DNA from: Candidatus Alkanophagales archaeon
GTDB taxonomy: Archaea > Halobacteriota > Syntropharchaeia > Alkanophagales > B39-G2
Assembly (NCBI GenBank): GCA_003661185.1
Contig: QMVQ01000031.1
Location: forward strand, 1 to 11,412
Reading direction: 5' to 3'
DNA: 11,412 bases
The position numbers were made by a program, and so were the translations under genes. The notes beneath the pieces were generated by a model. That model was given only the letters and a program-made list of their open reading frames with translations. It ran no database searches and was not told the origin of the DNA. This document shows positions 588-9,138 of the stretch, in pieces (the stretch's first letter is position 1; each line of letters starts with the position of its first letter).

Positions 588-929
588 ATGCCAAGGCGGC
601 GGTGCCGTTTCGTGGGCTTCCAGCCGGGTTTCAGCTACTTCCAGCCCGTCGGGGCTATGATGGGCGAGGTCGTATTGAAAGTAGAAGAGCTGGAGAGCTT
701 ACGACTAAAGGATTTGCTTGGGCTTGAGCAGAGTGAGGCTGCGAAGGAGATGGGCATCTCGCAGCCCACGTTCCATAGAATATTAAAAGAGGCTCGTAGG
801 AAGGTTGCGGATGCCCTCGTCAACGGCAAAGCTCTCAGAATCGAGGGCGGCGACTACGTGCTCAAGACTGCGGCGTGGGGCGTTCCGCCGTGTAGACGCA
901 GGAGACGAGGACCGCCGTGGCAGCCTTAG
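588..929 (+). CDS. DUF134 (UPF0251) helix-turn-helix protein
   Basis: This 113-residue protein has the DUF134 layout. The Pro/Arg-rich N-terminus MPRRRCRFVGFQP is followed by a strand-loop segment containing a VGAMMGEVVLKVEELESLRL stretch. A sigma-70 region 4-like helix-turn-helix comes next at about residues 47-78 (LEQSEAAKEMGISQPTFHRIL), then a basic tail CRRRRRGPPWQP. The family is a predicted DNA-binding regulator found in many anaerobes, often beside Mrp-type ATPases and NifX-like proteins, and its targets are not established. The start ATG 588 has a GGTGGG-type site about six bases upstream. The stop at 927-929 lies 12 bases before the ATG of mrp, and the Mrp Shine-Dalgarno overlaps this stop codon, so the two genes are clearly cotranscribed. 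Paired palindromes upstream could be its own operator. Confidence 0.85.
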   Translation: MPRRRCRFVGFQPGFSYFQPVGAMMGEVVLKVEELESLRLKDLLGLEQSEAAKEMGISQPTFHRILKEARRKVADALVNGKALRIEGGDYVLKTAAWGVPPCRRRRRGPPWQP

Positions 930-941
930 GTGGTGGTGGCG

Positions 942-2189
942 ATGGAAGAAGCCCGTAAAGAAATAGAGAAAAAGATGGAGAAAATAAGGCATAAAATCGT
1001 AGTGATAAGCGGAAAGGGTGGCGTGGGTAAGACGACGGTTGCCGTTAATCTTGCGGTCTCACTTGCGAGGAAGGGTTTGCGGGTCGGGCTTCTCGACGCC
1101 GACCTGCATGGTCCGAACGTGCCAAAGATGCTTGGCGTCGAAGATGAACGTCCGACTGTGGAAAACAACGAGGTCGTCCCTGTGGAGTCGCAATACGGTG
1201 TCAAAGTCATGTCCGTAGGCTTTTTGCTCTCAAGTAAAGACTCGCCTGTAATCTGGCGGGGTCCCCTGAAAGCGACTGCAATTCGGCAGTTCCTCAGCGA
1301 CGTTCGCTGGGGCGAGCTTGATTATCTCATCGTGGACCTGCCGCCGGGCTGCTTGTCCAGCAACACTCGAATACTCACGCCGCGCGGTCAATTCCGCATT
1401 TCTGAAGCCAAGGCTGGCGTCCCTGTATATTGCTTTGACGGCGAGCGTGTTATGAGCCGCCGGATTTTGGACGTCATCCCGCAGGGCGTCGCCACTATTT
1501 TCGAGCTTAAGACCGAAAATCACAGCATTAAAGGCACAGCAAACCACCCCATCCTCGTCGCTGAGGATGGACACCTTTCTTGGAAGAAACTTCTGGAAGT
1601 CAAGCCCGGAAACGTCGTCCTCGTATTCGAGACGGACGCCGCCTTCGAGCGGCAACCCGCATCGCTGCCGCTGAGCTTTGAAACCGTTGTCAGCATCAGC
1701 GCTGCCGGCGTCGATGAGGTTTACGACCTTAGAGTCGAGGGGGGGAACTTCATTGCCAATGGCTTCGTCGTGCACAATACTGGCGACGAGCCGCTAAGCG
1801 TTGCGCAGCTCATCCCGAAAATCAGCGGTGCTATCATAGTCACGACGCCGCAGGACGTCGCCCTTCTGGATTCAAGGAAGGCTGTGGTCTTCGCCTCGCA
1901 GCTGAACATGCCTGTTGTGGGCATCGTAGAGAACATGAGCGGTTTCATCTGTCCGAACTGCGGCGCCCGCTTTTTCCCGTTTAAGGTCGGTGGCGGGCGT
2001 AGGGCGGCGGTGGAGCTCGGCGTCCCGTTCCTCGGAAGCATTCCCTTAGAGCCTCAAATCGTGGAATCTGGCGATGCCGGCGCCCCCTTCGTCGTGAAAA
2101 ACGTTGAGGCTGCCAAGGCATTTGAGGAAATCGTAAAGAGAGTTAGAGAATTTTTGGGAGACGAGGAAAGCAGCTGTGTGAGCAAATAG
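942..2189 (+). CDS. mrp: Mrp/NBP35 family Fe-S carrier P-loop ATPase, interrupted by a mini-intein
   Basis: The extein is a complete Mrp (ApbC/NBP35-like) ATPase that binds an Fe-S cluster and passes it to apoproteins in the cytoplasm. The precursor is 415 residues and the spliced product would be 272. The deviant Walker A GKGGVGKTT is at residues 24-32, followed by LLDADLHGPNVP and then VIWRGPLK. The switch motif YLIVDLPPG/TGDEP is split after Gly136 by the intein at residues 137-279. The CPNC cluster-binding pair is Cys337 and Cys340, which in the family bridges a [4Fe-4S] cluster across the dimer. ATG 942 is preferred over GTG 930 because AGGTGG (928-933) sits correctly before it. At 930 the codon would overlap that site and directly abut the DUF134 stop. 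The metallo-hydrolase gene follows after two bases. Confidence 0.93.
   Translation: MEEARKEIEKKMEKIRHKIVVISGKGGVGKTTVAVNLAVSLARKGLRVGLLDADLHGPNVPKMLGVEDERPTVENNEVVPVESQYGVKVMSVGFLLSSKDSPVIWRGPLKATAIRQFLSDVRWGELDYLIVDLPPGCLSSNTRILTPRGQFRISEAKAGVPVYCFDGERVMSRRILDVIPQGVATIFELKTENHSIKGTANHPILVAEDGHLSWKKLLEVKPGNVVLVFETDAAFERQPASLPLSFETVVSISAAGVDEVYDLRVEGGNFIANGFVVHNTGDEPLSVAQLIPKISGAIIVTTPQDVALLDSRKAVVFASQLNMPVVGIVENMSGFICPNCGARFFPFKVGGGRRAAVELGVPFLGSIPLEPQIVESGDAGAPFVVKNVEAAKAFEEIVKRVREFLGDEESSCVSK
1350..1778 (+). other. Mini-intein (143 aa) inside Mrp
   Basis: The intein begins with Cys1 (block A, CLSSNTRILTPRG) and ends with His142-Asn143, followed by Thr as the +1 extein residue. Block B is GTANHPILV with Thr63 and His66, the TxxH pair that activates the first peptide bond. 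Blocks F and G are VYDLRVE and NFIANGFVVHN. Removing residues 1-143 restores DLPPGTGDEP, the canonical Mrp motif, exactly. These features define a class 1 splicing domain of the Hint fold. No LAGLIDADG or other homing endonuclease is present, and only about 50 residues lie between block B and block F, so the element probably can no longer home on its own. The block F position often held by His (as in HNF) is Gly132 here (GGNF). Cys28 is a second cysteine within the element. Confidence 0.93.
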
Positions 2190-7953: not shown

Positions 7954-9011
7954 CTAAAGGCGGATTTTCCGCTGGTGCTTGACGTAGGTCGCATAATCCA
8001 GATACCTAACGCTTTTCATAAAGTCCTTGACATCGGGCGCCTTGTCCCGATATTTTTCTATTTCCTCAGTGACGCGGAGGCTGAAGGCGTCGGAGCCAGC
8101 ACCAGAGCCAAAACTCGTCATTAGAATGCGAGAGCCGGGCGCCGCCTCGTCGAGGATGGCAGCTAACCCTATTAAAACAGCGGCGGAATAGGTATTTCCG
8201 ATCTTCGTGACGCAGAGCCCGGGGAGCACCTGTTCCTTCCTGAAGCCGAGCTTCGCCGCCGCGCGGAGCGGAAACTTCCCGTTCGGCTGGTGGAAGACCG
8301 CATAGTCGAAATAGTCGGCGGAGACGCCCATCTTCCTGAAAAGCCCCTCCGACGCCGAAATCACATGCCGAAAATACGCAGGCTCCCCAGTAAAACGCCC
8401 GCCGTGCGATGGATACTTTTGCAGGTCTCGCCGCCAAAAGTCAGGGGTGTCCGTCGTGAAGGAGAAGAAATCTTCAATTCCACGAGGACTTTGCGCTCGT
8501 CGTTCTTGCCTATGATAAAGGCGGCACCGCCGGCTGCCGTGGCGTATTCGAGGGCGTCGCCGGGCGACGACTGTGAAACGTCAGCGCCGATGGCAAGCCC
8601 GTATTTGATGCGGTCTGCAGAGATGAGCCCGTAACACGCTTGAATGGCGGCGGTGCCAGCTTTGCATGCGAATTCGAAATCTGCAGCGAAGATGGAGGAA
8701 GGCGCCCCGATGGCTTCTGCGACGATTGTGGCGGTCGGCTTCACAGCATACGGGTGGCTCTCCGAGCCCACGTAAACGGCGCCAATTTCCTTGCTGTCGA
8801 GCGCAACTCGCTGGAGTGCAAACCTCGCCGCCTCCACAGCAATCGTCACTGTGTCCTCATCAAGGTCGGGCACACTCTTCTCCTCGACGAGCAGCCCTTT
8901 TTTTATGTCTTCTGGGTTCTCGCCCCACTGCCTCGCTATATCCTCAACTCTAATCCTGAACCTCGGGATATAAACCCCATACGATATTATTCCTATCAAG
9001 CTTTTACTCAC
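7954..9011 (-). pseudogene. Archaeal HMG-CoA synthase with a one-base frameshift
   Basis: The enzyme condenses acetyl-CoA and acetoacetyl-CoA to HMG-CoA in the mevalonate route to archaeal lipids. Two overlapping minus-strand frames make up one complete protein of about 352 residues, the normal archaeal length. The N-terminal part (9011 to about 8475) has [25 protein letters not shown] with the likely acid Glu84, and [11 protein letters not shown] with catalytic Cys116. Near 8475 the frame must change: the downstream frame reads [15 protein letters not shown], then [28 protein letters not shown] with the catalytic His, and [14 protein letters not shown] single lost base (TTGGAAG to TTGAAG) explains it. 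GTG 9011 is taken as the start because GGAGGT lies five bases upstream. The lesion may be real or a sequencing error. The usual thiolase and DUF35 neighbours are not seen. Confidence 0.9.
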
Positions 9012-9138
9012 CCGTGACCTCCTCCCCTCACTGAAAGGGGCATCCACCGGATGCGCGAGGTTGGGGAGTGTGCCGGACGGCGCTCCCCTTCGAGCTGGGT
9101 CACGGCAGCTCCTGACCGCAGGTTATACCCACAGCCTC
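9012..9138 (-). promoter_or_regulatory. Stem-rich 5' leader of HMG-CoA synthase, possible regulatory RNA
   Basis: Between the inferred transcription start (about 9138) and GTG 9011 there are four perfect stems. They are GAGCTG/CAGCTC (9092-9097 with 9106-9111), GGGGAG/CTCCCC (9063-9068 with 9083-9088, plus an inner GCC/GGC), GCATCC/GGATGC (9040-9045 with 9049-9054, loop of three) and CCCCT/AGGGG (9024-9028 with 9036-9040). The last borders the Shine-Dalgarno site. An alternative pairing GGTCA/TGACC (9098-9102 with 9113-9117) excludes the first stem. I recognise no known riboswitch. A switch, a protein-binding leader or a separate small RNA are all possible. Confidence 0.4.

Follow-up and report, generated by a model that had tools for sequence, protein, structure and literature searches.

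The 11,412-nt window analyzed here (contig QMVQ01000031.1 of Candidatus Alkanophagales assembly GCA_003661185.1) carries an Mrp/NBP35-type ATPase gene that is interrupted, at positions 1350..1778 of the plus strand, by a 429-nt insert encoding 143 amino acids, and this insert was confirmed to be an intein. It is very probably a class 1 mini-intein that lacks an endonuclease, splices constitutively and is the relic of a homing intein widespread at this Mrp site. An earlier note made from the sequence alone had placed an intein at exactly these coordinates and had further proposed that its splicing gates the host protein in response to redox or metals; the position and the host were borne out, while the gate was not.

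The intein matched three profiles above their cut-offs, namely PF14890 (E 4.2e-13, 49.8 bits vs. 35.8), TIGR01445 over residues 1–70 (32.5 vs. 24.5 bits) and TIGR01443 over residues 123–143 (25.9 vs. 15.6 bits). The block A nucleophile Cys1 is encoded at 1350..1352, the block B TxxH motif (T63-A-N-H66) at 1536..1547, the block F motif VYDL (residues 124–127, including Asp126) at 1719..1730, and the terminal His142-Asn143 at 1773..1778 (Asn codon 1776–1778), directly followed by Thr+1 (codon 1779–1781). The only other cysteine of the intein is Cys28 (1431..1433). Consistently, the predicted structure adopts a HINT fold matching 2in0, so that together with the profiles and the empty sites in relatives, Cys1, TxxH and His-Asn plus Thr+1 assign the element to class 1. 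Neither an endonuclease family in the Pfam scan nor a LAGLIDADG-like motif was found in the 143 residues, and it is thus not a homing intein itself; a split intein was ruled out by the single continuous open reading frame (ORF). The structurally solved mini-inteins or splicing domains of Spl DnaX (7cfv), Pho RadA (2lqm) and Mtu RecA (2in0) reside in different host proteins and at different sites.

The precursor ORF spans 930..2189 on the plus strand and encodes 419 residues from GTG 930, its longest form, or 415 residues if ATG 942 is the start; the latter is the likely one, as the homologue P0003 begins at the identical MEEARKE. The reduction from 415 to 272 residues on splicing that had been anticipated therefore holds for the ATG start, while the longest ORF would go from 419 to 276. 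From the ATG, the N-extein (942..1349) contains the P-loop SGKGGVGK (1008..1031), which is nearly invariant (≥90%) in alignment A1, and ends in VDLPPG. The C-extein (1779..2189) starts with TGDEPLS and carries CPNC (1950..1961), which we take to be the Cx2C motif that ligates the Fe-S cluster in Mrp proteins and in which C341 is nearly invariant. In the Pfam scan, PF10609 covered the unspliced precursor in two stretches with 318 bits, but the spliced protein in a single stretch (residues 18–262) with 339.9 bits, in agreement with the expectation that excision rebuilds DLPPGTGDEP and an intact host protein. The conserved motif was uninterrupted in all 27 intein-less Mrp loci of the extein tree, in which the site reads DLPPGTGDEPLS. 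The spliced extein is a full-length relative of the Mrp/ApbC carriers of known structure (A. fulgidus 2ph1 and 3kb1, ApbC 8zkc, Cfd1 6g2g), with 2ph1 (E 4.1e-68) and 8zkc the closest PDB sequences; unlike the window precursor, these entries are not described with an intein. The PF10609 score, P-loop and Cx2C motif support the assignment of the host as an Mrp/NBP35 (NUBPL)-type iron-sulfur carrier, for which cluster transfer is predicted. The unspliced precursor would presumably be inactive, as had also been supposed earlier.

A search for insertions at the same position, which the earlier note had called for, showed that the window copy is not unique. Three protein searches, with the window intein, P0004 and P0005 as queries, were pooled and every PF10609 match was included, giving 35 Mrp/ParA proteins from archaea and bacteria, window included, that carry an intein exactly at PPG|C...HN|. 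The window intein itself retrieved 3 matches among 345 candidates, all Mrp (the window protein, P0002 and P0003, the last recorded as Candidatus Alkanophagales), the Methanophagales copy P0004 retrieved 25 among 240, and P0005 at least 58 among 8000 candidates scored. Cys1, the block B His (H66), the block F Asp (D126) and the terminal His-Asn are invariant in 35/35, T63 is retained in 32/35 and replaced by Ser in three, and the +1 residue is Thr in 34/35. One member, P0007, is a Bipolaricaulota protein, and the few records with an organism name show part of the spread over phyla. Two members, P0012 and P0039, are already labelled as intein-bearing Mrp in database annotation, where JGI calls them 'Mrp family chromosome partitioning ATPase/intein/homing endonuclease'.

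The one member without Thr+1, P0044, a ParA/Mrp-family protein, has its intein at the aligned PPG site followed by Ser+1 (SQD), which suggests that a sister family uses this site, too. Its 341-residue intein contains the endonuclease PF14528 in the precomputed Pfam list.

The lengths of the 35 inteins form a graded series: 22 have 384–393 residues, four have 341–360, single copies have 318, 237, 222 and 174, two have 189, and the three Alkanophaga-type copies are the shortest with 141–144. Twenty of the 35 matched a LAGLIDADG-like motif, all of them with at least 384 residues. Database members such as P0012, P0039 and P0007 share the host family, insertion residue and catalytic residues with the window copy, but most differ from it in length and endonuclease. 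We read this series at one Mrp site as repeated endonuclease loss, and the window intein looks like a shrunken form of the mobile element found at the same spot in other archaea and bacteria.

Genome scans placed the Mrp-site intein in few relatives. Across the phylum, the pattern HNTGDE matched 24 of 392 genomes, three of them real (G000, the same-genus relative G001, and G022), and intein alignment at E 1e-8 matched 21 of 392, with three of these in Mrp and no Mrp signature at the place fetched in the other 18. The pattern HNTGDEP, which is blind to bacterial-type junctions, hit 61 loci over the genome contigs, of which two were real (L097 and L106). In the order search of 53 genomes, the Mrps aligned across the intein among the matches listed were again those of G000, G001 and G022. 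No Mrp signature was found on viral contigs among the best 80 of 233 intein relatives. As a separate observation, the non-Mrp relatives that scored best within the order lie in the beta subunit of a Methanophagales 2-oxoacid:ferredoxin oxidoreductase (L212–L214, AYMN|C...HN|TGIQRS), and other top-scoring ones in ribonucleotide reductase (L216, L217 and L220, recognised by eye).

Evidence for mobility came from a pair of genus-mates. In the extein tree, the Mrp of G022 (Methanophagales) and that of G023 form sister branches (support 99/93). Both Mrp copies of G023 have an empty site, the insert in G022 is clean, and between the two genomes the exteins share 95% identity at the protein as well as the DNA level. 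Hence intein gain in G022, or loss in G023, postdates their split. The exteins of the three Alkanophaga-type proteins cluster together (support 100/97). P0044 and P0038 have very long branches in this tree, and conclusions are drawn from its Methanophagales/Alkanophaga part only. Between G000 and G001, the synonymous divergence (dS, Nei–Gojobori) was similar for intein (1.43) and extein (1.19), near saturation, which fits joint descent since the species split; in pairs with G022, dS was at or past saturation. The nonsynonymous divergence was 0.21 for the intein vs. 0.06 for the extein. The intein thus evolves faster, while intein and exteins are both under purifying selection.

In class 1 inteins, splicing proceeds by an acyl shift at Cys1, transfer to the +1 residue, Asn cyclisation and an O-N shift. 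With the window intein lying between Gly and Thr of DLPPG|TGDEP in the only strong Mrp of the genome bin, the predicted route would run from the Cys1 N-S acyl shift through transfer to Thr+1 and Asn143 cyclisation to the O-N shift, releasing the 143-residue intein and an Mrp of 272 (or 276) residues. A homing intein would have colonised the Mrp site in bacteria and archaea, and the Alkanophaga copy would have lost its endonuclease and, with it, self-movement. Splicing would then be required for Mrp production, with no regulatory role implied. Under the homing cycle, imprecise intein loss destroys the host gene, and the intein most likely persists because such loss would destroy mrp.

Several results weigh against this reading or loosen parts of it. 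The block F His preceding NF is present in 20/35 Mrp-site inteins and missing in 15/35, including the Alkanophaga copies, which leaves the splicing efficiency of the latter uncertain. In approximately unbiased (AU) tests, from which three of the 52 rows of the intein tree were left out (very long rows, other inteins of the window's own genome), a single clade of all 35 inteins came close to rejection (p 0.077), so that multiple origins are possible, while a core of 31 inteins as one clade (p 0.235) and one acquisition for the Alkanophaga and G022 inteins (p 0.152) were not rejected. Further, the branch of the Alkanophaga inteins is long, at about one change per column, and their link to the endonuclease-bearing members is therefore weakly placed. 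Five other ORFs of the bin also exceed the PF10609 cut-off, over parts of the model. In NCBIfam, six paralogues gave one MinD and one NifH-like protein above cut-off, three weak matches to MinD or MrpORP models and one without a match at E 1e-15. Among the three weak ones is a 297-residue ORF on contig C130 with DAPPGTSCP and Cx2C motifs, which could share the Mrp function; given such paralogues in a bin that is 86% complete, a partly redundant carrier is possible.

These points bear on the rival explanations. A decayed, poorly splicing intein, with Mrp largely lost or present as cleaved halves and another P-loop ATPase substituting, would account for the missing block F His and the faster evolution of the intein, and the C130 paralogue would be a candidate substitute; given the intact catalytic residues, the purifying selection on intein and exteins alike and the lack of a second strong Mrp in the bin, we consider it very unlikely. 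An assembly artefact or chance resemblance has in its favor only the fragmentation of the metagenome-assembled genome (1.69 Mb, 259 contigs, with the window on contig C31), and its probability is close to nil: the profile E-value is 4e-13, and 32 further proteins besides those of G001/Ca. A. volatiphilum and P0003 carry an insert at the same site. As the intein-bearing gene recurs in further assemblies, it is not a single-assembly artefact, and the profile matches together with these independent records refuted an artefact or chance ORF.

The proposed gate deserves closer weighing. Oxidation or metal binding at Cys1, together with Cys28, would hold the precursor and let the intein gate the Fe-S carrier. 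Cys1 is indeed the nucleophile, Cys28 is present in all three Alkanophaga-type inteins, and the intein is hosted by an Fe-S protein. Examples of redox-sensitive inteins, in PolII and SufB, are covered by the review PMC5874633. Some relatives of the window intein lie in SufB and in the beta subunit of 2-oxoacid:ferredoxin oxidoreductase, but others lie in DnaB and dCTP deaminase, so that no clear bias to Fe-S hosts is seen. Residue 28 is Ser in 30/35 and Ala in 2/35 of the same-site inteins, leaving 32/35 without Cys28, so a Cys1–Cys28 switch would be at most an Alkanophaga peculiarity. Moreover, the splice junctions of the window Mrp hold no extein Cys, and the length series is accounted for without regulation. 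Conditional splicing of this kind is therefore unlikely. A co-opted gate, in which an intein that can no longer home is kept by purifying selection in the only strong Mrp of the genome and oxygen or metals stop splicing via Cys1/Cys28, appears quite improbable as well; if true, cluster delivery would start only once the anaerobic cell is reduced. A regulatory switch is a hypothetical role for the window intein, which probably removes itself.

It is well established that inteins occur at P-loops and catalytic sites as well as in SufB, and the Mycobacterium tuberculosis SufB intein is reported to sense oxidative and nitrosative stress (PMC5874633, PMC8891592). The window intein resembles the latter in sitting in an Fe-S protein, SufB being an assembly protein, but its host is an Mrp carrier, and the reported stress sensing concerns the SufB intein. 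The claim that no intein had been described at the Mrp site stands for the open literature searched, in which none was found for Mrp/NBP35 (coverage was partial, and the bare pairing of 'intein' and 'Mrp' was not searched), but not for the databases, which hold 34 other such proteins, two of them so annotated. The window thus adds an Mrp-site allele, absent from the literature searched, in a central Fe-S carrier. This one allele spans lengths between a full homing intein and a bare mini-intein and offers an occupied/empty pair within one genus, so that both the homing cycle and the claim of intein regulation in Fe-S proteins can be tested at one site in many hosts. Ca. Alkanophaga volatiphilum is described as a petroleum-alkane oxidiser from the Guaymas Basin, and Alkanophaga enrichment cultures are described as well (PMC10322722).

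Directly upstream of the mrp ORF lies a DUF134 helix-turn-helix gene (588..929, plus strand; PF02001, E 1.1e-25), and by eye a DUF134-like ORF also precedes the intein-bearing mrp in G001. Elsewhere in the bin, further inteins were noticed in RNA polymerase A'', the small subunit of RFC, the large subunit of DNA polymerase II and GyrA (L009, L010, L012 and L013); the N-terminal part of the RNA polymerase A'' ORF is cut by the contig end. The intein C-terminal residue is usually Asn or Gln; the intein of the DNA polymerase II large subunit (L012, minus strand) apparently ends in ITVD before CDGDED and would be Asp-terminal. Finally, the HMG-CoA synthase gene at 7954–9047 (minus strand) is split across the overlapping frames 8361–9047 and 7954–8364, a frameshift that reflects either a sequencing or assembly error or a broken gene.
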